Shown: positions 5,796 through 29,910, counted from the stretch's first letter. The stretch: DNA of 34,442 nt from Fibrobacterota bacterium (GCA_023249635.1 JAHFCH010000049.1:1-34442), one strand, 5' to 3'. The notes: generated by a model from the letters alone, not told the origin. Translations and numbers: made by a program.

Positions 5796-7457
5796 ATGCC
5801 CTTCATTGAAATCCTAAGCAGCCCAGCCAACCTCACGACCAACCGGTTCGCTTTGAAGGAAGGGCCCAACGTTGTCGGCCGCGAAAAGGGCTGCGACATC
5901 GAGATCGCCGATCCGCGCATCTCCTCCAAGCATTGCATCATCATGGTCACGGCCGGCGAGGTGGAGTTCATCGATCAGAACTCGACCAACGGCGTATACA
6001 TGGACGACCAACGTCTGCGCAAAGGCAAATGGGCCGAAGGCGCCACCGTGTTCATGGGCAACACCGAGATGCGCCTCAAGGGCGGCGCGGCGATGGACAA
6101 CAGCCTCAAGACCGGCACCTCGCAATGGGGGCAGAAGGAGACCACGGCCGGTCCCGGCACGGGGACGCAGCCCAAGGCCCTCAACAATTCCAGCTTCGAT
6201 TTCAACATCGTCCAGGAAAAGAAGATCGGCGGGTCGCAGACCGGGGCGGAGCAGGCCCAGGACAATGCCGCCAAGCGCATGGAATCCATCAACCGCATGA
6301 TCAAGTCCGTCACCACGGTCAAGAACGTGCCCGACCTGCTCGATCGCACCATGACCCTGCTCTTCGAAGCCGTCAATTGCGATACCGGCTATATCCTGGT
6401 CACCGATCCCGCCAACCACGACGCCATCAGCGACCATTTGGCCTACGAGCGCGGCAAGCGCAAGGACAACCTGGAAGAGAAGCTGTATAGCCGCACCCTG
6501 GTTTCCACCGTGATCCAGAAGAAATCCGGTTTCATCTTCGATAGCGACGAGAGCGGCGAACAGGATCAATCGCTTTCCATCTTCCAATTGCGCATCAAGA
6601 CCGCGCTGTGCTGCCCCATCCATTCCGAAGGCCAGATCTACGGCGTCATCTACCTGGACAACAAGAAACGCGGCGCCAAGTTCAACGGGGACGATCTCGA
6701 TCTGACCATGAACATCGCCGGTATCTCGGGCGTGGCCATCGAAAACATGGGCCTATCCAAGAAACTGGAGACGGAATCGCTCATCCGCGATCACCTCAAG
6801 CGCTTCTGCTCGCCCAACATCGCCGAGAAGATCATCGCCGAGCGCGGCAGCAGCGATTTCCACCTGCAGTCGCAAAAGACCAACCTGACCGTCCTGTTCG
6901 CGGATATCCGCGGCTTTACGCCCCTCTCCGAGACGCTGGCGCCGCTGGAAGTGGCCCAATTGCTCAACAACTATTTCTCGGAAATGTGCGAAATCGTGTT
7001 CGCCAACGGCGGCACCCTGGACAAGTTCATCGGCGATTGCATGATGGTGCTGTTCAATGCGCCCATGCCCGTCGCCGATCACGAATACTTCGCGGTTAAG
7101 ACCGCCCTGGAAATGCGCAACCGCCTTGCGAAGAAGATCACCGAGTGGAAGGCCGCCGGCATCCCGGAGTTCCAGGTGGGCATCGGCGTCAACTGCGGTG
7201 ACGCGGTGGTGGGCAGCATCGGAACCAGCACGCGCATGGAATATACCGCCATCGGCGACACCGTGAACATCTCCTCGAGGGTATGCGGCATCGCCAAACC
7301 CAACCAGGTGCTCATTACCGAGGCCGTGCTCGAAAAGGTGAAGGATCGCTTCCGCACCGTGAGCATGGGCGCCGTGCAGCTCAAAGGCAAATCCCGCCAG
7401 GTGATCGTCCACGAGGTGGTGGACGATTTGATCCTCCCGAGCAAAGGCGAACCTTAG
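5796..7457 (+). CDS. FHA-GAF-class III adenylate cyclase
   Basis: This is a cytoplasmic signalling enzyme of 553 aa predicted to make cyclic nucleotide. Residues about 20-100 form an FHA phosphothreonine-binding domain (VVGREKGCDIEIADPRISSKH, then NSTNG). A low-complexity linker follows. Residues about 165-330 resemble a GAF domain (DLLDRTMTLLFEAVNCDTGYIL, then TALCCPIHSEGQIYGVIYLD). Residues about 360-545 are a class III cyclase domain. Metal-binding aspartates are Asp370 (FADIRGFT) and Asp414 (DKFIGD). Lys410 occupies the purine-recognition position, Thr replaces the second purine-contacting Asp (EYTAIGDTVN), and Asn/Arg of NISSR are present. A Lys/Thr pair is typical of bacterial class IIIb adenylate cyclases, so cAMP is more likely than cGMP. 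No membrane segment is visible. The gene appears monocistronic, with recD ending 137 nt upstream and a convergent gene downstream. Confidence 0.9.
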   Translation: MPFIEILSSPANLTTNRFALKEGPNVVGREKGCDIEIADPRISSKHCIIMVTAGEVEFIDQNSTNGVYMDDQRLRKGKWAEGATVFMGNTEMRLKGGAAMDNSLKTGTSQWGQKETTAGPGTGTQPKALNNSSFDFNIVQEKKIGGSQTGAEQAQDNAAKRMESINRMIKSVTTVKNVPDLLDRTMTLLFEAVNCDTGYILVTDPANHDAISDHLAYERGKRKDNLEEKLYSRTLVSTVIQKKSGFIFDSDESGEQDQSLSIFQLRIKTALCCPIHSEGQIYGVIYLDNKKRGAKFNGDDLDLTMNIAGISGVAIENMGLSKKLETESLIRDHLKRFCSPNIAEKIIAERGSSDFHLQSQKTNLTVLFADIRGFTPLSETLAPLEVAQLLNNYFSEMCEIVFANGGTLDKFIGDCMMVLFNAPMPVADHEYFAVKTALEMRNRLAKKITEWKAAGIPEFQVGIGVNCGDAVVGSIGTSTRMEYTAIGDTVNISSRVCGIAKPNQVLITEAVLEKVKDRFRTVSMGAVQLKGKSRQVIVHEVVDDLILPSKGEP

Positions 7458-8901: not shown

Positions 8902-10875
8902 TCAATACTGCGTCGGATCCGGGGTCTCTTTCATCTTGGAAAGCATCATCAGGCCCGCCGGAGGATGCGCCATGCGGCGTACCTTCTCGCGCGCCATGCG
9001 TATCAGGTTGTTGCGGCCGCGGATGTGGCCCACGAAACGCGTCGAGGATTGCAGCACGTCGGGTTCGGCGGCGGCAGGGGACTTGTAACACTTGCCCTTG
9101 CGCACGCAGAAGCGATGCTCGGTATGGCGGCGGCAGCGATGTACCTGCGCCTCGACGGTCTTGCACAACACCGAAACCGTGGTCTTATCGATTAGGCCGC
9201 GCAGGCCTGCGCCGTTCTGCTGCACGCCCACTTCGAACAGGCCCACCCCCGAAAGCGGCGAGGCGATGGGAATGGTGTCCAGTACCTCGTCGCCGATGGC
9301 GATCTGGTAATTGTCCTTGAATATCCACAGGTCCACGGAGAAGTTGATGCTGGGCATGGCCGCGATGGACGATTCCTCGAATTGATCGAAGTCCTGGCCG
9401 CCGCTCGCTCCGAACATCTCCACGAAAATCTTCCCCGGCTGGCCCGTAAATCCCACGTTGATGAACGCGTAGTCGTTGAAATTCCCGTCCGCATCGGCGT
9501 TGACCATGAACAGGGCCCCGCTTTCCGCGAAATTGTTGGGCGCGTCCGCGATCAGTTGCACGCGGTTGCTGAAGCGGATGCCGGTATTGGAGTCCAGCGT
9601 CACCGGGCATTTGGGGATCCAATCGGCCGCGGTCGAATATGCCCCCTCGCGGGCATAGAGCAATCCACCTTCCGTTACCCCGTCGCCATCGCCGCGCCAA
9701 ACCGAGGTATCAATCGCGGTCCAGGGTTCATCCAGGAGTTCGCGTTGCACCGCGCAGGTAGGGGGTTGCACGTCCAAGGGCGCGCAATGGTCGGTGGGCA
9801 GGGGCGCGTCCGCGAATACGGAGAGAGGATCGGCGCATACCGCGTCGGCATCCAGGATGCGGATGCGCACCGGGGGCAGTTCGCCGCCGGCCGCGCATTT
9901 CCGGGAGACAACGGGAGGCCGGCCGCCATCATCGTGATGGTCATCCCGGTCGCAGCGGCCATCATGGTTGCTATCATGGTCCGAGCGATCGCAGCGGCCA
10001 TCGCGTCCGTAATGATGCGCGTCCTGATCCTGGCCGCCATTCCGATCGCAATTCTCGCGGGAGGTACCGCCGCGGATCTCGCTGCCTCCGCCACCCGCCC
10101 CGCCTGCACCCGCCCCACCGTGGTCCTTGTCGCTTTCCCGGGATTGGTAGCCTTCCTGGCCCCCATTGGACCAACGGCGCGAAGGGCCGCCTACGGACAG
10201 GACCTGGAAGGCGATCTTGCCGATGCTCTTGCCGCGAATGTCGCCGGAGAGCGGGTTGTACTTCATGGTCACTTCACCGTCGACCGTGATGGCGCAGATC
10301 GAGCGGCCTTCCAAGCGGGTAAGCCCCAGGGCGCGCAGGGGCGCGAGGCCGGGAACGTTTTCCAGCAAGGTTTCGGTGTTACCGTGGGAATCGGGGCTGC
10401 CCAGGCCGGGACCCGCTTCGGCGTAGTTGCGCAAACCGTCGCCCTGCTCTGGTCCGGCGGACTTCCAACCGATGCGTACCTGGGTCGGGGCGAACCAACC
10501 CTCATCCCCCACGTCGCCCGAAGGCAGGACCATTTCATGCCCGATATGCCGCGCGAACCAATCCACCGTGGAACGATTGCCCACCTTCTTGCGTTCGCAG
10601 CCCAGATCATGCTCAGAAAAGCGATTGGGATCGCGGCCCGGCGCCAAAGCATCTCCGTCCAGGATGAGGAGCAGGTTTTCGCCGCGGCATTCGGGATGCC
10701 CGGGTGAGCTCGACTCGGCCCGCAAAGAGGAGGATTGCTGCTGCGCATTCCCTGGGTTCTGGTCCAGGCAACCGGCCGCGAAAAGGCCGGAGGCGGCGGC
10801 TATGGCTGCAGCCAGGCGTACGCTAAGACGTGATTGGGCTTGCGCGGCGAATGGGCGATAAGGCGAGGATTGCAT
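8902..10875 (-). CDS. Lipoprotein-like protein with His/Asp/Cys-rich repeat
   Basis: I do not recognise a named family for this 657-aa protein. It begins with an export signal ending FAAGC, an imperfect lipobox at about residue 36, so it is probably an envelope lipoprotein. Residues about 60-235 form a conserved-looking domain (NLLLILDGDALAPG, STVDWFARHIGHEM, GDEGWFAPTQVRIGWKS, ICAITVDGEVTMKYNPLSG). Residues about 240-320 are low-complexity Gly/His/Asp-rich with a 13-residue tandem repeat around DGRCDR. Its segment DSNHDGRCDRDD resembles calcium loops of thrombospondin type 3 repeats. Residues about 370-560 look like a concanavalin/LamG-type beta sandwich (SGALFMVNADADGNFNDYAFINVGF, GLFEVGVQQNGAG). 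The tail is basic and has four cysteines. AGGGGAC lies about 6 nt before the ATG at 10875. A sugar- or mineral-binding role is only a guess. Confidence 0.7.
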   Translation of the reverse strand: MQSSPYRPFAAQAQSRLSVRLAAAIAAASGLFAAGCLDQNPGNAQQQSSSLRAESSSPGHPECRGENLLLILDGDALAPGRDPNRFSEHDLGCERKKVGNRSTVDWFARHIGHEMVLPSGDVGDEGWFAPTQVRIGWKSAGPEQGDGLRNYAEAGPGLGSPDSHGNTETLLENVPGLAPLRALGLTRLEGRSICAITVDGEVTMKYNPLSGDIRGKSIGKIAFQVLSVGGPSRRWSNGGQEGYQSRESDKDHGGAGAGGAGGGGSEIRGGTSRENCDRNGGQDQDAHHYGRDGRCDRSDHDSNHDGRCDRDDHHDDGGRPPVVSRKCAAGGELPPVRIRILDADAVCADPLSVFADAPLPTDHCAPLDVQPPTCAVQRELLDEPWTAIDTSVWRGDGDGVTEGGLLYAREGAYSTAADWIPKCPVTLDSNTGIRFSNRVQLIADAPNNFAESGALFMVNADADGNFNDYAFINVGFTGQPGKIFVEMFGASGGQDFDQFEESSIAAMPSINFSVDLWIFKDNYQIAIGDEVLDTIPIASPLSGVGLFEVGVQQNGAGLRGLIDKTTVSVLCKTVEAQVHRCRRHTEHRFCVRKGKCYKSPAAAEPDVLQSSTRFVGHIRGRNNLIRMAREKVRRMAHPPAGLMMLSKMKETPDPTQY

Positions 10876-11083: not shown

Positions 11084-11602
11084 ATGACTGAGTGGCGGCG
11101 GTTCCATGGGCGGGACAGCGGTATGACGGCTATAGAAATCATCATCGCCGTGGCGGTGCTGCTGATCGTTTCCGCGGTCTGCGTCAAACCTTTGGCCGGC
11201 CTGATGCACCGCCTGAAGATCCAGAACGCCGCCGATGGCATGAAGCATTACATCCTCAACGCCCGGCTACGCGCCGTCTCGAATCCTGATCGGCATTGCG
11301 GCGTGGTCTTCCGGTTCCATCCCGGCAATACCTGGGACGATACCCTTTTCGCCTTTCTGGATCGCAATCCCCCCGACAAGCTTTACGTGCAAGGGCAGGA
11401 TTCCACTTACCTGGCCCCGCTGGTCATCCAGAAGCAGGACAAAATCGCGATCACGATTCCGGCAGGCTACCCTAGCGTAGTGACCTTCCGCGGCGATGGC
11501 TCGGCCTCGGGCAGCGCCAAGATTGCGCTCTCGTTGAAGGGCTTCCAAGACACCCTCGATTTGCTGGCGAGCACCGGCCGCGTGAAAGTGACCAAGCATT
11601 GA
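11084..11602 (+). CDS. GspH/FimT-like prepilin
   Basis: This is a minor-pilin or pseudopilin-like protein of 172 aa. It has a 13-residue basic leader ending in Gly, then MTAIEIIIAVAVLLIVSAV, which is a prepilin peptidase site (G|M) with the conserved Glu at mature position 5 and a hydrophobic alpha-1 helix. The C-terminal part is beta-rich, with CGVVFRF, DGSASGSAKIAL and LLASTGRVKV, as in GspH/FimT minor pilins. A GTG at 11072 is in frame, but the GGGGG tract sits at a proper distance only from the ATG at 11084. It is the first gene of a five-gene overlapping operon, and its stop shares a base with the next ATG (TGATG). The assignment to GspH/FimT rests on the N-terminus and gene order. Confidence 0.8.
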   Translation: MTEWRRFHGRDSGMTAIEIIIAVAVLLIVSAVCVKPLAGLMHRLKIQNAADGMKHYILNARLRAVSNPDRHCGVVFRFHPGNTWDDTLFAFLDRNPPDKLYVQGQDSTYLAPLVIQKQDKIAITIPAGYPSVVTFRGDGSASGSAKIALSLKGFQDTLDLLASTGRVKVTKH

Positions 11603-12033
11603 TGCGCCCGAATGAATCCATTCCGCGCGGGGACGTGCGCCAGGAAAACGGCTGGACGCTTCTCGAAGCCCTCGCCGCCATCGTCGTGGTCGGCATCGGC
11701 ATCGCCCTGTTCCTCAGGGTTCAGCATGGCTCGAGCCGGGATAGCGCGGACAACTCCCGCATGCTGATGGCCGGGAAGATGATCGAGAAATTCCTGGAGG
11801 ACACCCGCATTACCATCGCCAAGGACACGCTGGCCAATTGGCCGCCGCCCAACCGGGTGGTCACCGGGACCGCCCCGTCCTTTATCACCATCACCTCAAC
11901 CATCTCCACCGCCTATTCCCCCAAGGACCTGGCCCCGGTGGCGAACGTCATGCGCATGGATATCGCGGCACGGTGGGTGCAACCGTACCCGGATTCGCTC
12001 CTGGTAACCACTTATGTATCGAAACGCTTCTGA
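11602..12033 (+). CDS. PilV/GspI-like prepilin
   Basis: This is a 143-aa prepilin-like protein. A 17-residue leader ends in Gly and is followed by WTLLEALAAIVVVGIGIALFL, with Glu at mature position 5 and a typical alpha-1 helix. The LLEALAAIVVV pattern and short length match PilV/GspI minor pilins. The ATG at 11602 shares its A with the upstream TGA. A TTG at 11599 in the same frame is a less likely start. Its 3' end overlaps the next gene by 20 nt. Mature residues are polar and Ser/Thr-rich (TGTAPSFITITSTISTAYSP). The partner proteins would be the other prepilins here and an assembly machine not present in this window. Confidence 0.75.
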   Translation: MRPNESIPRGDVRQENGWTLLEALAAIVVVGIGIALFLRVQHGSSRDSADNSRMLMAGKMIEKFLEDTRITIAKDTLANWPPPNRVVTGTAPSFITITSTISTAYSPKDLAPVANVMRMDIAARWVQPYPDSLLVTTYVSKRF

Positions 12034-12853
12034 TCCGTACCGCCAGGGGGGATTCTCCCTGGTCGAAGTGCTCATCGCCATGGTGGTATCCAGCCTGCTG
12101 AGTATCGCGGTGGTGCGTTTCTACAAAGACTCCTACCACGCCTATAGCCTCCAGGAACAGCTGCAGGATAGGGATCAGAACGCGCATTTCGTGGAAACCA
12201 AGTTCGTGGAATTGTGGCAGCAGGCGGGCTCCAGCCTCCCGGATACCGGCTGGACCGTGATCAGCCAAGCGGCGGGAACCACCACCATCGGGCTGAACCC
12301 GCGCGGCGCGGAACAGTTCAACGGGGTGGACCTGGCCTCGTCCTTCTTCATACCCATCAGCGACGCGGCGCAATGGGCCAATACCGGCAACGTACTACTG
12401 AACATCTACCACGTGCTCATCGATTTCGCCGACCCTACGGTGTCCACGCGGAAATATTCCATCGACGTAAGCTACAACGCGAACGGCTTCAACGAAGGCA
12501 TCAAGGACAACGCAATCGGCATGGACAGCGTCCGTATCACGGTCCCGGTGCGCCTGGCGGTGGGCGATCGCATCTACGGCTACCGCGAAGACGTATTCAA
12601 GGTTACCGCGGCCAACCTGCTGGTGCTGCCCAACGGCAACGCTGCCGGCCAGATGGTGCTGGCCGAGGACATCGATTCCCTGGGATTCACCTTCCGGGAC
12701 GACAAGGGCGTCGCCACGGCCAACTGGCGCAAAATGAAATCGGTCAGCTTCACGGTGCGCGCCCGCACCTCCAAAGCCGACCCCAAGCTTCCAGCCCCCG
12801 GGTACCGCAAAATCACAATTCCGATGAACGTCATACTGAGGAACCGGATATGA
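12014..12853 (+). CDS. PilW/GspJ-like prepilin
   Basis: This is a 279-aa prepilin-like protein with a 13-residue leader ending GG, then FSLVEVLIAMVVSSLLSIAVV. The G|F cleavage site and Glu at mature position 5 are canonical. The larger size, the coiled alpha-1 extension (YSLQEQLQDRDQNAHFVETKFVELWQQAG) and a late LAEDIDSLGFTFRDDKG segment match PilW/GspJ proteins, where the latter stretch precedes the last strands. The gene overlaps its upstream neighbour by 20 nt and the downstream gene by 4 nt (ATGA), so all these proteins are probably made together. In known systems PilV/PilW/PilX- or GspI/J/K-type proteins form a tip complex, and the same order here suggests the same arrangement. Confidence 0.8.
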   Translation: MYRNASDPYRQGGFSLVEVLIAMVVSSLLSIAVVRFYKDSYHAYSLQEQLQDRDQNAHFVETKFVELWQQAGSSLPDTGWTVISQAAGTTTIGLNPRGAEQFNGVDLASSFFIPISDAAQWANTGNVLLNIYHVLIDFADPTVSTRKYSIDVSYNANGFNEGIKDNAIGMDSVRITVPVRLAVGDRIYGYREDVFKVTAANLLVLPNGNAAGQMVLAEDIDSLGFTFRDDKGVATANWRKMKSVSFTVRARTSKADPKLPAPGYRKITIPMNVILRNRI

Positions 12854-14628
12854 ACGGACCTGAACGCGCCGCGCCCGGCGGCGAAAGCAAGGGCGATCGG
12901 GGCTTCGTCCTCGCCCTGACCATCCTCCTGGTACTGGGAGTGACGGCCATCTCGGTAGGCATCATCTTCAACGGCCGCATGGGCCGCATGTCTTCGCTCA
13001 ATTACAAGAAGAAGATCGAGACCTTCATGGCCTCGGACGGCCTGGTAACCCTGCTGGCCCAGGAACTGATCAACGGCAACGGCAAAAAGTACGTGGACTC
13101 CAGCCGGGTGGGAAAGATTAACGGCGAGCTCTGGGCCGGCCTCAATGGCGACGGCGTGGCCGAATTCGAGGACCTGACGCGCAGCGATCCCGTCCCCGAC
13201 GAGACTCTCACCTCCTACTACCTGGGTTCCAGCCTGGATCGGGATTTCTACGGGGTGAAATGGAAGGGGTGGATTATCCCTCCGCTCTCCGGCGCCTATA
13301 CCTTCATCACCCGGTCCGACAACGAATCCCGCTTCTACCTCAGCACCGACGAAGAGGAGAGCAACCTTTCCTCCAGCCCCATCTGCAAACAGGAGCCCGG
13401 CTACGTATACTCCTGGCCCAAGACCGGCGATGCCATTTCGGATCCCGTGCCCCTGGTAGCCGGCAAGCGCTACTACTTCGAGTATTACCATAAGGAAGGC
13501 TGGGGCTTCGACGTGGGCCAGGTGGGTTGGAACGGACCGGAGTTCTTCAGCGAAAGGCCCATCACCGGAAAATACCTGAGCCCGTACAAGACCGATCCGG
13601 CCTGGGCGGGCGTGACCAAGGTCGGCAATCTCAACGTGCGCTACCAGGTCGCCGCCACCGGGCTGGACGCCTTCCGTATCTTCACCGAGGCCATCAATAT
13701 GCGCGCGGGCGCCTCCAAGGACACCGCCTACCGTACGCCCCTCACCCAGGCCGTATCCCTGAAGGGCCAGGCGGTAACCCCGCCGCTGCACCTGTTCATG
13801 CCGGCCATCTACCATGATTTCCCTTCCGACCACAGCCATCCCGAATTCAACATGTGCTGCTACGTCGACGGCGTGACCCATAACATGGTGAAGGAGCATC
13901 TCACCGACTTCACCAACACGGACGCATCGTATTTCGGCCGCACCTCCATCCCCAAACCCACTCATGACCAGGATACCCCGAACTTCGGGTGTGGCGTGAA
14001 CAAGTGGTTCAAGGACTGGGTAAAGGACGATTACGATTACGAGTACTCGGACGCCTCCGACTGCCGAAAGACCAAGCACGTAGGGACTTGGTGGGGCGGC
14101 GGCGACACGTATAAGAATTACAAGTGGAAGGATTCCCTCGACTTCGTGCTTGACGTGAACGAGGGGCCCAGCACCTACGTCTTCAGCCAGATGGGCAATT
14201 ACGACACCGGGGATCCGCAAACCAGCTGGCGCGGCGACGCTACCATGTTCTTCCCCCTGGATTGGCGGGGACAAGACCCGGTCGGCTCCTGGGGCGGCCA
14301 TAACTTCGGCTTCTGCATGGAAATGCACACCACCTTCATCTACCAATCGGGCATGAAGTTCGAGTTTACTGGCGATGACGACACCTGGGTCTTCATCAAT
14401 GACGACATGGTGATTGATCTGGGCGGCATGCATCCCGCGCGCAACGCCATCCTCAACCTCGACAACCTGACCAGCCTCAAATTCGGGAACATCTACAATT
14501 TCGATTTTTTCCAGTGCGAACGCCATGAATGGGCGTCGAGCAGCCGCATCGTGACCAACATCAAGATGATCCCGCCGCAAGGCAATCCCGTGGCCAACTG
14601 GCGCCGCGATTACGGATCCATGGACTGA
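12850..14628 (+). CDS. PilX/GspK-like N-terminus fused to PA14 and fibro-slime domains
   Basis: This 592-aa protein combines a pilin-type N-terminus with surface-binding domains. After an 18-residue leader ending RG comes FVLALTILLVLGVTAISVGIIF. The G|F site is kept but mature position 5 is Leu, not Glu, as is usual for GspK/PilX tip subunits. Residues about 115-245 form a PA14-like domain (YYLGSSLDRDFYGVKWKGWI, GAYTFITRSDNESRFYLSTD, GKRYYFEYYHKEGWGFD). Residues about 310-580 form a fibro-slime domain (LDFVLDVNEGPSTYVFSQMG, FTGDDDTWVFINDDMVIDLGG). Fibro-slime domains were described in Fibrobacter surface proteins, and PA14 domains often bind carbohydrates. The start at 12850 overlaps the upstream stop by 4 nt; earlier in-frame ATGs would run through the previous gene. 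Inferred role: tip adhesin of a pilus or pseudopilus. Confidence 0.85.
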   Translation: MNGPERAAPGGESKGDRGFVLALTILLVLGVTAISVGIIFNGRMGRMSSLNYKKKIETFMASDGLVTLLAQELINGNGKKYVDSSRVGKINGELWAGLNGDGVAEFEDLTRSDPVPDETLTSYYLGSSLDRDFYGVKWKGWIIPPLSGAYTFITRSDNESRFYLSTDEEESNLSSSPICKQEPGYVYSWPKTGDAISDPVPLVAGKRYYFEYYHKEGWGFDVGQVGWNGPEFFSERPITGKYLSPYKTDPAWAGVTKVGNLNVRYQVAATGLDAFRIFTEAINMRAGASKDTAYRTPLTQAVSLKGQAVTPPLHLFMPAIYHDFPSDHSHPEFNMCCYVDGVTHNMVKEHLTDFTNTDASYFGRTSIPKPTHDQDTPNFGCGVNKWFKDWVKDDYDYEYSDASDCRKTKHVGTWWGGGDTYKNYKWKDSLDFVLDVNEGPSTYVFSQMGNYDTGDPQTSWRGDATMFFPLDWRGQDPVGSWGGHNFGFCMEMHTTFIYQSGMKFEFTGDDDTWVFINDDMVIDLGGMHPARNAILNLDNLTSLKFGNIYNFDFFQCERHEWASSSRIVTNIKMIPPQGNPVANWRRDYGSMD

Positions 14629-15056
14629 TGCGCGTCGCCCTGCTGGCCTTCGCTTGCGCCCTGGCAGCGGCCCGCGCCGATGACGTAAAGGCAAAGTTCC
14701 CCATCCAAAAGGCGGTATCCGCCGCCGTGTTCGACGAGAAGATCGGCCATCAGGTCAAATTGCATTTCGGGAATCCCGCCACCGCTCCGGGCGGTAAATC
14801 TTTCGGCTACGCAACCTGCAACGCCAAAGGCAGCACCCTGAAGCGCGAGGGCGAAGACGCCTGCGATTGGGTCTTCACCAGTTGCATGATCGATCTAAAG
14901 GCCCAGGCCGACAGCGCCGGCGCCGATGCCATCATCGGCATCGTGAGCGCTTATGACGGCAAAACCTTCGTCAGCGACAGCCTGTTCGAGTGCCATCTGG
15001 GTAAGGTTGCCGCGGGCGTAGCCCTGCGGGGCAACCTGATCAAAATCATGAAATAA
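14628..15056 (+). CDS. Small periplasmic YbjQ-like protein
   Basis: This 142-aa protein begins with a Sec signal peptide (MRVALLAFACALAAARA|DD). The mature part has KLHFGN, then CDWVFTSCMIDLKAQADSAGADAIIGIVSAY, SDSLFECHLGKVAAGVALRGNLIKI. This pattern matches a family of small exported proteins often mislabelled 'excinuclease ATPase subunit', with a fold like YbjQ/DUF74. No ATPase motif exists. Three or four cysteines (CDWVF, SCMID, FECH) could form disulfides. The ATG at 14628 shares a base with the TGA of the fibro-slime gene, so it belongs to the same operon and may act with the pilin-like proteins, but its function is unknown. Confidence 0.65.
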   Translation: MRVALLAFACALAAARADDVKAKFPIQKAVSAAVFDEKIGHQVKLHFGNPATAPGGKSFGYATCNAKGSTLKREGEDACDWVFTSCMIDLKAQADSAGADAIIGIVSAYDGKTFVSDSLFECHLGKVAAGVALRGNLIKIMK

Positions 15057-22769: not shown

Positions 22770-22790
22770 ACTGCCGCTTCCGCTCAGTTC
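22768..22790. terminator. Stem-loop spanning two convergent stops
   Basis: GAACTG (22768-22773) pairs with CAGTTC (22785-22790) around an 11-nt loop. The stem overlaps the stop codons of both convergent genes. There is no T-tract, so termination is inferred from its position in a 14-nt convergent gap. Confidence 0.3.
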
Positions 22791-23956
22791 CGGGCCAAGC
22801 GCGCGAAGAGGAGCCGGCCTTGGCTCTCCGCCGGTACCGGAATGCGGTTCGCGCCGGCCTCCAAGTCCGAATGCATGACGCCGATCAGGCGGCCCCGCGC
22901 ATCGAATAGCGAAACCGCGTACGCGCCTGCCACGGGGGCCCTTACCATCACATAGGTTTTTCCGGCCACGCGCTGCGCGAAGGCCGCCCCCGATGCCTCG
23001 CGCCCCCCGCTGGACCGCGACAGGCTGGTTCCATTCATGAAGTCGGCGAGCATCGCTTGTTCCGAGTTGAGCAGGCTTTGACTGGAGTTACGGTCGCCGT
23101 AGTTGGCCACGAAAGCAACCAGGCCGATATTCTTCAGGTTGACCGGCAGGCCCAGGCGGGTCGGATCGTATCGCTCCGGAACCTTGTAGGTAAAGGGCAG
23201 GGCATAAGCCGTGGACGCCGCATGCTCGGGAGGAATGACCCCTGCCTTGCCGTGCACATCGAAAACCGCGGCGCGCGCCACGTTCATATGCGGGTACTTG
23301 ATGATCTTGCCGTCCTTGTATTCCAGGTCCGGGTAGAGGTCGGCGATTTCGGATATCGAAGCCTGGTCATAGGCCGAATTGGTCTCATCCGTATCGTCTT
23401 TCACGACTCCCGCCATCATGGTGGGCCTTCCCGAGCCCCCGGTCACCTGGTCTTCGATGACGATCAGCCCGATCCGGAAATCACCTGACCCGTTGGCTAC
23501 GAAGGTGGCGGCGATTTCCCCGGTGATGGTCCGGGAGGCGGCGTCCCACCCCAATTTCCGGAAGGCGATGCCGACCTGGGCGGGCGTCGCCATGAGCTTC
23601 GTATAGACCGGATTGAATACCTTGGGGAATCTGGGATCGATATCCATCTTGCCCCCGTACTGGCCCCGATCCATGAAAATGGTCGGGAACCCGGAGACCG
23701 CGTTACCGAAAGCCTCCATGAAGTCCTGCGACATGGCGCTCGTCATGTTGTCGTTGAAGGTATGGTAGGACACGACGATATTCCTATCCGAATCCTTGCG
23801 CATCGAATCGAGCGCATGCGATCCGTCGGTACACCATGCGCACCACGTAGCGGTGAGCTCCTCCATCAACACTTTTCTTACCGGGGCTCCCAAGCTCGGC
23901 CTGCCGGAGATCCCCAGCATTATGATTACCAGGGTCGCGATATTTTTTGCCTTCAT
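22784..23956 (-). CDS. Omp28-like secreted thioredoxin-fold protein (paralogue 1)
   Basis: This 390-aa exported protein starts at ATG 23956, with AAGGAG about 6 nt upstream; an upstream in-frame start at 23989 lacks such a site. The signal peptide ends around RPSLG|AP. The mature N-terminus is thioredoxin-like: RKVLMEELTATWCAWC with a CxxC pair at Cys39/Cys42, then NIVVSYHTFNDNM and a cis-Pro-like SGFPTIFMDRG. The middle part (QVGIAFRKLGWD, GDFRIGLIVIEDQVTG) matches Omp28-related proteins of Bacteroidota and Fibrobacterota. The C-terminal 60 residues (GAYAVSLFDARGRLIGVM, GANRIPVP) resemble a type IX secretion sorting domain. It is a close paralogue of the gene at 27498-28652. The predicted role is a surface or periplasmic thiol-disulfide protein, with unknown substrate. 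A 207-nt gap upstream allows its own promoter. Confidence 0.8.
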   Translation of the reverse strand: MKAKNIATLVIIMLGISGRPSLGAPVRKVLMEELTATWCAWCTDGSHALDSMRKDSDRNIVVSYHTFNDNMTSAMSQDFMEAFGNAVSGFPTIFMDRGQYGGKMDIDPRFPKVFNPVYTKLMATPAQVGIAFRKLGWDAASRTITGEIAATFVANGSGDFRIGLIVIEDQVTGGSGRPTMMAGVVKDDTDETNSAYDQASISEIADLYPDLEYKDGKIIKYPHMNVARAAVFDVHGKAGVIPPEHAASTAYALPFTYKVPERYDPTRLGLPVNLKNIGLVAFVANYGDRNSSQSLLNSEQAMLADFMNGTSLSRSSGGREASGAAFAQRVAGKTYVMVRAPVAGAYAVSLFDARGRLIGVMHSDLEAGANRIPVPAESQGRLLFARLARN

Positions 23957-24163
23957 CTTCCACTCCTTGATCTCATGTAAGCGGTCCACCCACCGTGGAG
24001 GACTTCTCGATCAATAAAGCGCGACCGACGAGCGAATACCGGCCGGGCCGGGAAATTCCGGTGATATATTCCTCACCGATCGCGCAACCGGTGTAACACG
24101 CTGGTTACCTGGTGGACATGGCTGACGGGATCGGGTACGGAGGGGAGAGTACCGAAGTCAGGG

Positions 24164-27497: not shown

Positions 27498-28652
27498 TCA
27501 ACGCTCGACCGCTTTCGCGATCAAGATACCGCTCCCGTTCCTGAACGCCGCGCGCGGAAGCAGGATGCGGTTGAGCCCTGCTTCGAGATCCCGATCCAGC
27601 TTGGCTACGACGGTTCCCCGGGTATCGTAGAGGGAAATGCCATAGGCTCCGGCGGACGCCGTCCGCACCGTCACGAAAGCCGCCCCGCTTATCTCCTGCA
27701 CGCTGGCCAAGGCCTTCCCGTGCAACCGATCCCGCGGCAGTACCCGCGTGCCCTCCAGGTAATCGGCCAACATGGCGAGGTCGCAATTGAGAATGGTCTT
27801 GCCCGAGGAGCCGCTCTTTACCACGAAGGCCACCAATCCGATATTCGCGAGCTTCACCGGAACGCCCAAGGGGGTGGGATCGTATTTCTCCGGTACCTGG
27901 TAGGTGAACGGCAGGGCATAGGACGAATCCGCCTTGACGCTCTGGGGAATCACGCCGGATTTGCCCGTGACGCCGAAAGGCGCCGCCCTGGCCACCCAGG
28001 GGTGGGGATAGCCGAGGATTTCCCCGTTCGTGTATTTCAGGGTGGGGAAATTGGCCACGACATCGCGGTCGGCGGTCTGGTCATAGCCCTTATCGTACGC
28101 GTCCGGGTCCTTCTTCACCGCGCCATTCACCAGGGTGGCCCTGCCGTTCCCGCCGACCACCTTGTTCTCGGTGATGATCAGCCCGAAGCCGAAGCTGCCG
28201 GACAGGCTCTCCGTGAACGAAGCGGCGAGTTCCCCGCTGACGGTCCGGGTGGAGGCATCCCACTTCATTTTCCGGAATGCGATTCCTACTTGCGCCGCCA
28301 AGGCCTGCTGCCTGCTGAGCGCGGTCTTGAAGCTGGAGTTGCGCGGATCCACGCTTGATGATCCGCGATCCATGAAGGCGGAAGGATAACCATCCACCCC
28401 GTAGTACGCATCCTGCCAATCGAGTTGCATAGGAGTGGACATGTTATCGTTCTCGACATGGTAGGACACCACGATGTTCTTGGGCGATTCGACATGCAGC
28501 TTATCCAACAGCACCCCGACCGACGGGCAGAAGTGGCACCAGGTCACGGTGAATTCCTCCAACAGCACCTTTTTCACGGGAGCCGCCGCCAGCGAGGCGC
28601 GCGGCGTACCCGAAAGAACGATGGCCAGGATCGCGGTATGCATGGCTTTCAT
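27498..28652 (-). CDS. Omp28-like secreted thioredoxin-fold protein (paralogue 2)
   Basis: This 384-aa exported protein starts at ATG 28652 with AAGGAG 6 nt upstream; the longer frame to 28862 overlaps the neighbouring gene. The signal peptide ends RASLA|AA. The mature N-terminus KKVLLEEFTVTWCHFC carries CxxC at Cys39/Cys42, the same positions as in the paralogue at 22784-23956. A cis-Pro-like DGYPSAFMDRG follows. The middle part (AQVGIAFRKMKWD, GSFGFGLIITENKVVGG, YALPFTYQVPEKYDPT) is shared with that paralogue almost segment by segment. The C-terminal tail (GAYGISLYDTRGTVVAKLDRDLEAGLNRILL) resembles type IX sorting domains. It lies 28 nt after the NHL gene and 1 nt before the PEGA lipoprotein gene, inside the same operon. 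Confidence 0.8.
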   Translation of the reverse strand: MKAMHTAILAIVLSGTPRASLAAAPVKKVLLEEFTVTWCHFCPSVGVLLDKLHVESPKNIVVSYHVENDNMSTPMQLDWQDAYYGVDGYPSAFMDRGSSSVDPRNSSFKTALSRQQALAAQVGIAFRKMKWDASTRTVSGELAASFTESLSGSFGFGLIITENKVVGGNGRATLVNGAVKKDPDAYDKGYDQTADRDVVANFPTLKYTNGEILGYPHPWVARAAPFGVTGKSGVIPQSVKADSSYALPFTYQVPEKYDPTPLGVPVKLANIGLVAFVVKSGSSGKTILNCDLAMLADYLEGTRVLPRDRLHGKALASVQEISGAAFVTVRTASAGAYGISLYDTRGTVVAKLDRDLEAGLNRILLPRAAFRNGSGILIAKAVER

Positions 28653-28680
28653 GGTTGACTCCTTGCCTAAGCGGAATGGT

Positions 28681-29910
28681 TTATCGGGCCGGGAACACGA
28701 GGGCGTAGGGATGGGTCCCGACGGCCGCGGCCCGCCCCCGCGCATCGAACCACCGGCCTTGCGCGAACGGGACCGCGAAGGGCGTGGCGGAAGGCGAAAG
28801 CGGCCGGCCCAGCCACGTCGACACGCCCGGCTGCGCCACCATGACCTGGTTGGTCGTCGCATCCACGTACCAGATTCTCCCGTCCGGGCCGATGACGAGG
28901 CCCATGATTCCCTTGGCTCCCGTCTCCAGGCGCCCGATTTCCCGGGCCGGCATGGTCGCGATGTCGAAGAACATCAAGCTGCCGTCGGAATGATCCGACA
29001 CCACCAGCGTGTTGTTGAGGACGTCCACGCCCGTCGGTTCCAGCAATCCCTTGTCCATCACCACTTCCCAGGTCGCCCCGGTCACGTTCAGGTATTCCGC
29101 CACGTCTTCGGTCATGTGCCATTTCGGTTTCCCCCCAACGGTCCCGGACGCGATGTTCAAGCGCAGGATTCTCTTGTTCCCTCCGTCCACGATATAAAGC
29201 CAGCCTTTGGGTTTTTGCACGACCAGGTGGCAGGGAATGTTCTGGTTGATCCATTTGACGGCCACTTCGGGATAGCGGTGGATGATGGCATCGCTGTGGT
29301 CATCTCCGCCCGGCTCATGCGGCTTTTGGAAATCGTAGCGCAACACGTCATGGCTGTTCGCGTCGAAGGCCCAGAAGGCGTTGCCCTTCTCATGCGCGAT
29401 GCCCATGTTATAGGGGCTCTCATGGAGCATGTCGATATGGCTTCCGTTGCCCCCGTTCGGCATGCAATAGATGGCGGGGTCGCTGTTCCACAGGGTAGGG
29501 CCGGTAAAGGAAGACGCGACGTTGCTTCCATGGTTGGCGTCCAGCGCGCCTGACGAAGTCGCGAAATACCCGTTGTCCCCGAACGCGAGGGCGGTGGGCT
29601 GCAGCATGAAGTGCATGGCATTCCCGTCCTTCTGCAGCAATGTCTTTTGGGTAGGCTTTCCCGGATTGGAAATCTTGATGGTGGAACCGCCCGATGTCGC
29701 GGTTCCCCGATTGATCACCCAGAGGTTCCCTTGCTGATCGAAATCGAGATCCTGGGCGACGGCGACCTTGTCCTTATCCGAGGCCACCTGGATGAAAGTG
29801 GTCGCGGCGGGCGTCGCGGTATAGGCGGCGAGCAAATCGGGAATCTCCGCCCGGGATGCGATACAGCCGGCGGCTGTTACGAGAACGAGAATCCGGGTAT
29901 GCTTATCCAT
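28681..29910 (-). CDS. Secreted NHL-type beta-propeller protein
   Basis: This 409-aa exported protein starts at ATG 29910, with AAAGGAG about 6 nt upstream. The signal peptide ends CIASRA|EI. The body has repeated propeller strands of the NHL/SMP-30 kind: AVAQDLDFDQQGNLWVINRG, PTALAFGDNGYFATSSG, HLVVQKPKGWLYIVDGGNKRILRLN, LEPTGVDVLNNTLVVSDHSDGSLMFFD, IMGLVIGPDGRIWYVDATTNQVM. NHL propellers commonly bind proteins, RNA or sugars, and no catalytic residues can be named. The last 30 residues (GRWFDARGRAAAVGTHPYALVFPAR) look like a shortened sorting tail. It follows the Ig-like gene by 29 nt and precedes an Omp28-like gene by 28 nt. Confidence 0.8.
   Translation of the reverse strand: MDKHTRILVLVTAAGCIASRAEIPDLLAAYTATPAATTFIQVASDKDKVAVAQDLDFDQQGNLWVINRGTATSGGSTIKISNPGKPTQKTLLQKDGNAMHFMLQPTALAFGDNGYFATSSGALDANHGSNVASSFTGPTLWNSDPAIYCMPNGGNGSHIDMLHESPYNMGIAHEKGNAFWAFDANSHDVLRYDFQKPHEPGGDDHSDAIIHRYPEVAVKWINQNIPCHLVVQKPKGWLYIVDGGNKRILRLNIASGTVGGKPKWHMTEDVAEYLNVTGATWEVVMDKGLLEPTGVDVLNNTLVVSDHSDGSLMFFDIATMPAREIGRLETGAKGIMGLVIGPDGRIWYVDATTNQVMVAQPGVSTWLGRPLSPSATPFAVPFAQGRWFDARGRAAAVGTHPYALVFPAR

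Follow-up and report, generated by a model that had tools for sequence, protein, structure and literature searches.

The window, a stretch of 34,442 nucleotides from the 6.75 Mb draft genome of a Fibrobacterota bacterium (GCA_023249635.1, JAHFCH010000049.1:1-34442), carries an operon of four overlapping genes on the plus strand that encode proteins with prepilin-type N-termini. The genes are designated H, I, J and K in the order of the operon. The last of them encodes a large minor pilin of the GspK/PilX type, which also contains a PA14 domain and a fibro-slime domain.

The H-I-J-K operon

H (11084..11602, +) encodes a FimT/GspH-type minor pilin with the cleavage site HGRDSG/MTAIE. It is followed by a PilV/GspI-type minor pilin, I (11602..12033, +; RQENG/WTLLE), a PilW/GspJ-type minor pilin, J (12014..12853, +; YRQGG/FSLVE), and K (12850..14628, +; 592 amino acids; DRG/FVLAL). 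The best start of I is the ATG at 11602, which has one base in common with the stop codon of H; the overlap of I and J is 20 bases long, and J and K overlap in the sequence ATGA. H matched the prepilin profile TIGR02532 with 18.4 bits (cut-off 16.3). J also exceeded the cut-off of TIGR02532 and reached 30.7 bits with N_methyl (cut-off 21.2). The prepilin signal of I was weaker (N_methyl, E 0.007; PilV profile TIGR02523, E 4e-4). These open reading frames and profile matches bear out the gene order that had been proposed in the original prediction, made from the DNA alone.

The residue at mature position 5 is glutamate (Glu5) in H, I and J. In K, the N-terminus reads ...KGDRG/FVLALTILL with leucine at this position, and a hydrophobic residue is found there in all relatives from the same genus, as the prediction of a tip subunit lacking Glu5 had held. 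The cleavage site G18/F19 is invariant in ten aligned K proteins and is accompanied by a hydrophobic helix (amino acids 17-77). Neither PilX_N nor N_methyl was detected in K of the window by profile scans. In distant K orthologues with a clearly homologous helix, PilX_N was matched with E-values of 1.6e-5 to 5e-4, which is below the curated cut-off. The assignment of K to the GspK/PilX type, also part of the original prediction, is upheld by the missing Glu5, by its being the largest subunit and the product of the last gene, and by its conservation as part of the operon.

Architecture of K

A profile check of 12850-14628 had been proposed for PilX_N, PA14 and fibro-slime. The latter two were found far above chance, and only the expected PilX_N match was missing. 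PA14 (PF07691) was matched with E 8e-14 and 52.1 bits, above the gathering cut-off, with the best stretch at amino acids 111-230; the fibro-slime profile TIGR02148 was matched with E 5e-31 and 106.9 bits (curated cut-off 45). K thus joins a pilin module to domains that are not specific to pili (PA14, TIGR02148), and is, judged by its sequence, a modular pilin.

Two AlphaFold2 models of K agree in the order of its parts: a helix (amino acids 17-77), a PA14 sandwich (90-228), a low-confidence linker (232-250), four strands (252-303) and the fibro-slime domain. This order places PA14 between the pilin helix alpha1 and the pilin sheet. The presence of both domains on K was therefore predicted correctly, but PA14 appears to be inserted inside the pilin and not appended to it; both the insertion point and the sheet are predicted features. 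In terms of the window, K comprises four constant parts and one variable part, all on the plus strand. The predicted helix alpha1 (12898..13080) is followed by the variable part, PA14 (amino acids 90-228; 13117..13533), which is defined by the profile match and the models. The second constant part is the predicted four-stranded sheet (13603..13758). The third is a complete, PA14-like fibro-slime module (amino acids 313-577; 13786..14580) with the motif GDDDxWVFIN at amino acids 508-517, of which GDD is nearly invariant. The fourth is a C-terminal tail with the consensus WKRDYG (14593..14619), which is present only in fibro-slime proteins of the K type.

In Foldseek searches, the best matches of K were dyads of tandem PA14 domains from anti-sigma factors of the RsgI type (6qe7, 6qdi). 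The sugar-binding PA14 adhesin 6m8m was also among the closest folds (template modelling score 0.68 by target). Taken alone, the fibro-slime part of K exceeded the cut-off of the Pfam PA14 profile (25.2; cut-off 24). Together with the match to PA14 dyads, this indicates that K is probably a pilin carrying two PA14-fold heads. The two heads differ in the Asp-Asp (DcisD) motif, the calcium- and sugar-binding motif of sugar-binding PA14 domains such as those of Flo5 and MpPA14: it is lacking in PA14 of the window, whereas the fibro-slime domain has GDDD. The PA14 sequence SDN corresponds to Asp157-Asn158. Asp158 is present in nine of the ten aligned K proteins of the genus, and Asn158 occurs in the window copy only.

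Distribution of the operon and exchange of the insert

All distribution searches were conducted within a sample of 168 Fibrobacterota genomes, using one profile of the K N-terminus with PA14 and one of J. In the families f7, f9 and f11, both profiles picked identical loci, and the K profile matched only about the first 65-100 residues there. In total, 22 H-I-J-K operons were found in 16 of the 168 genomes, which represent four families. The gene order, which the original prediction had expected to recur in related genomes, was always the same. Genes were lost only at contig edges (H in one case and K in another, the latter in genome G021). Glu5 is always present in H and I, is present in J except in family f11, and never occurs in K, in which position 5 is occupied by a hydrophobic residue, alanine or glycine. 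As far as sequence can tell, the prepilin N-termini, the absence of Glu5 from every K, the operon order, the division into constant and variable parts and the three copies in the window genome are established. The J proteins of family f11 (L084, L085, L087, L088) have Gly5 instead of Glu5, so that two subunits of the set lack Glu5 in this family.

The window genome (G000) contains 24 fibro-slime loci, which exceeds both the ten loci reported for Fibrobacter succinogenes S85 (PMC4668043) and the maximum of 10 copies given elsewhere (PMC4704652). Three of the 24 are of the K type, each as the last gene of an H-I-J-K operon (C288, which is the window, C332 and C319). The other genomes of the genus have one to three K operons each, with the exception of G157. 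Fibro-slime domains were found in 157 of the 168 genomes, and the K fusion is therefore a small subset. Some related arrangements were observed as well. In G156:C50 (L039:7616-11117), two tandem, diverged fibro-slime K genes close a single H-I-J-K operon. The K-type pilins of the other minor-pilin clusters in G000 (C129, C138, C143) contain no recognizable Pfam domain. In G000:C129:1-16370 (L054), successive minor-pilin clusters each contain I- and J-type genes, and large proteins without a recognizable domain follow two of them. In G000:C143 (L057:2944-7540), J- and K-type genes are followed by three similar genes in tandem for prepilin-type proteins of 505-515 amino acids, which is unusually large for this kind of pilin.

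To separate constant from variable parts, hidden Markov models were trained on K proteins of the window's genus only and applied to nine K proteins of other families and to 2000 shuffled sequences. The helix model scored 57-77 bits in the nine proteins, the sheet model (about 60 residues) 10-23 bits (best shuffle 4.3) and the fibro-slime model 103-153 bits. The insert model yielded nothing above the shuffled sequences in any of the nine. All nine are complete and have a C-terminal TIGR02148 match (62.8 to 124 bits) and a WKRDYG-type tail; the part after the helix differs. In the window's genus, the insert is PA14. Its place is taken in family f7 by a lectin-like domain of the DUF1349 type (Pfam E 7e-9 and 2e-5 in two proteins, 0.06 in the third), in genus g36 of family f11 by GH115_C (E 5e-15 to 5e-16) and in family f9 by two F5/8-C stretches (E 1e-34 and 6e-18). 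The PA14, DUF1349, GH115_C and F5/8-C families all include glycan-binding or lectin-like members. The insert of a K protein from a second f11 genus, g37 (G038), matched the f7-type profile with 55 bits (best shuffle 9.3), and the constant parts of this protein group with the GH115_C proteins of f11. The type of insert is thus not strictly tied to the family. A tree of the constant parts requires four changes of insert type, with three as the minimum for four types, and this count depends on the placement of a long-branch protein (f11_G037b). In G016:C392, G020:C157 and G022:C126, large proteins (882-1482 amino acids) have PA14 domains akin to the K insert in tandem sets of two or three; they are possible relatives of the source of the insert.

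K orthologues in other families surfaced only with the N-terminal profile. The matches obtained there with the whole of K were rejected as orthologues, as they are secreted fibro-slime proteins with Sec-type N-termini and not pilins. In the complete secreted proteins, the fibro-slime part begins directly after the Sec-type signal and the WKRDYG tail is lacking, while a tail of this type is present in every complete K. In a tree of fibro-slime cores, the K proteins fell into several groups, and a single clade was not rejected (approximately unbiased test, p 0.134). Because the tail and the gene order are common to all K proteins, a single origin of the fusion is favored.

Proposed role of K, alternatives and known systems

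We consider it likely that K is the tip, that is, the first-assembled, subunit of a type IV filament, a GspK/PilX-like protein that has become a glycan adhesin with two heads, one of which, the insert, is exchangeable. H, I and J would form the customary set of priming minor pilins, with K on top, because it lacks Glu5 and would be too bulky for the shaft. After export through a secretin, the lectin-like insert (PA14 in the window) and the fibro-slime domain would project from the tip and bind polysaccharide, and the cell and the polymer would be drawn to each other by extension and retraction of the filament. In other lineages, this insert is replaced by other domains of carbohydrate-binding type (DUF1349, GH115_C or F5/8-C). 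Since helix, sheet, fibro-slime domain and WKRDYG tail are kept, the same head could be re-aimed. Homologues of PilB and PilT are encoded in the genome, as are secretins and a prepilin peptidase. Tip or initiating pilins are marked by their large size, a hydrophobic residue 5 and a 3'-terminal gene (PMC5207764), and this published signature, together with the precedent of ComZ described below, makes a filament cap the most likely position of K.

Several observations weigh against this proposal. The confidence of the AlphaFold2 prediction is moderate (second model: predicted local distance difference test 73.5, predicted template modelling score 0.50), and no pilin structure is among the fold matches listed for K, which are dominated by matches of the PA14 part. 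Hence, the pilin fold is supported by the helix, by the sheet predicted in the models and by the PilX_N-like matches of the orthologues. With Asn158 in place of the second aspartate of the motif, PA14 of the window may bind weakly or differently. Genes for pilus or type II secretion system (T2SS) machinery were not found beside the operons examined; both kinds are located elsewhere in the genome. K is absent from G157, a genome of the same genus that is 98% complete, and from family f4, to which most genomes of the phylum belong; judged by genome number and copy count, this family probably includes Fibrobacter.

The assignment to a type IV pilus is inferred, and K might instead be the tip of a T2SS pseudopilus, with its glycan-binding-type domains in the periplasm, where they would select or push exoproteins such as cellulases. 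H-I-J-K is also the order of T2SS pseudopilins, the genome encodes several GspE-type ATPases and secretins besides PilB/PilT, and a bulky GspK may halt growth at the secretin (PMC5207764). However, T2SS genes do not adjoin any of the operons examined, and the fibro-slime proteins of F. succinogenes are found chiefly in the extracellular medium (PMC4668043). A lectin-like insert that varies between lineages would also suit external ligands better than exoprotein substrates, and we regard a role in the T2SS as unlikely. Somewhat less probable still is that K is a pilin that primes assembly, that its additional domains serve mostly a structural purpose, as a spacer or cap, and that the insert varies by neutral drift among beta-sandwich domains. 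The loss of one aspartate of the DD motif in PA14 of the window would fit this explanation, and an insert located inside the pilin, as in the models, could be a spacer. Yet all identified inserts come from families with glycan-binding or lectin-like members, the GDD motif of the fibro-slime domain is nearly invariant, and three diverged copies are kept in the genome. That K is not processed as a pilin at all, but is a surface adhesin on an N-terminal membrane helix that lies in a pilin operon by chance, would agree with the missing PilX_N match and Glu5 of the window protein and is nevertheless very improbable in view of the Gly/hydrophobic cleavage site and helix conserved in all K proteins, the PilX_N match of one orthologue (E 1.6e-5) and its close association with H, I and J in all operons.

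Building on the two-headed tip adhesin, we tentatively suggest that K may represent a phylum-wide tip-adhesin platform. A vertically inherited tip protein with a constant fibro-slime head would have had the glycan-binding cassette between helix and sheet replaced repeatedly by unrelated folds, retargeting a retractile filament, and paralogous operons, such as the three in the window genome, would encode differently aimed tips.

Parts of this arrangement have counterparts in known systems. Modular pilins such as PilB and PilC of Streptococcus sanguinis (PMC8179133) resemble K in that an unrelated adhesive domain is grafted onto a minor pilin, and one of the 15 architectures most often seen in such pilins is that with PA14 (IPR011658; PMC8179133). 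The survey of these proteins used the motif IPR012902 (PMC8179133), while K has neither Glu5 nor an N_methyl match; because such surveys rely on the Glu5 motif, pilins of the K type may be missed. Unlike the surveyed modular pilins, K is predicted to have its insert inside the pilin. A second domain, fibro-slime, comes after the sheet, and only the insert changes between lineages, the other parts of K being conserved. ComZ of Thermus thermophilus (PMC6561018) is likewise GspK-like, proposed to be located at the tip and devoid of Glu5, and it acts as a receptor by means of a large inserted beta domain. However, this insert is a single DNA-binding beta-solenoid located between the last two strands, without a fibro-slime domain, whereas the insert of K is an exchangeable, lectin-like domain placed between helix and sheet by the model. 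GspK/PilX proteins share with K the large size, the hydrophobic position 5 and the last place in H-I-J-K. In GspK, too, the sheet is interrupted by an inserted domain, but this domain is alpha-helical and does not belong to a glycan-binding family. PilC/PilY1 resembles K in its proposed role as an adhesive head with a modular N-terminus on a minor-pilin complex, but PilY1 is not a pilin; it is a protein of its own with a beta-propeller. This propeller (PF05567, the PilY1 C-terminus) is absent from K. That K might take the place of PilY1 was considered as well: PF05567 had no match in the 168 genomes, but neither did it match in the control genomes, and its absence from the phylum is therefore not shown. 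The best structural match of K, the RsgI3 dyads (PDB 6qdi, 6qe7), also consists of two tandem PA14 domains but is the ectodomain of an anti-sigma sensor and not a pilin.

The fibro-slime proteins of F. succinogenes (TIGR02148) belong to the same family as K, and the 265-residue module of K is matched along its entire length by secreted fibro-slime proteins from other families. The complete secreted proteins compared differ from K by their Sec-type N-termini and the lack of the WKRDYG tail. Pili and fibro-slime proteins of F. succinogenes have been proposed as separate adhesion partners (PMC4668043), and a fusion of fibro-slime with FlgD has been noted (PMC4704652). In the open-licence literature, no description was found of a pilin with a fibro-slime domain or of a tip pilin whose insert is exchanged at a constant position. 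Modular pilins, including those with PA14, and tip pilins with inserts (ComZ) are already known; the combination of a constant fibro-slime domain with a swappable insert was not encountered in the papers covered by the search. How Fibrobacterota grip plant polymers is an old question, and pili and fibro-slime, so far proposed as separate partners, are here part of one protein. The natural set of predicted tips with PA14, DUF1349, GH115_C or discoidin inserts offers a ready comparison of pilus-tip specificity, and it suggests that a type IV filament may be retargeted in evolution simply by domain exchange at a fixed insertion point of the tip pilin.

The small cysteine-containing protein and other genes of the window

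Directly downstream of K, with one base in common, lies an open reading frame for a small secreted cysteine-containing protein (14628-15056, 142 amino acids) without a confident family match. The original prediction had coupled it to K, which found no support. Homologues are absent beside the nine other operons of the genus, those found in the phylum are limited to G157, G015 and G150, and the nearest relative is encoded in G157, a genome of the same genus that lacks K. The protein was therefore rejected as a partner of K. By eye only, it resembles small cysteine-containing proteins of the RcsF type.

The window also encodes an esterase, an alpha-amylase and a sugar dehydrogenase with PKD domains, which are consistent with a polysaccharide-using organism but are not evidence of a linkage to the operon. 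Upstream of the operon, a fusion of FHA, GAF and adenylate/guanylate cyclase domains is encoded at 5796-7457, and a 657-amino-acid protein without a Pfam match is encoded on the minus strand at 8902-10875; the latter contains an Asp/His-rich stretch (DHDSNHDGRCDRDDHHDD). Two proteins with Omp28 domains are encoded at 22787-23989 and 27501-28862 (−).

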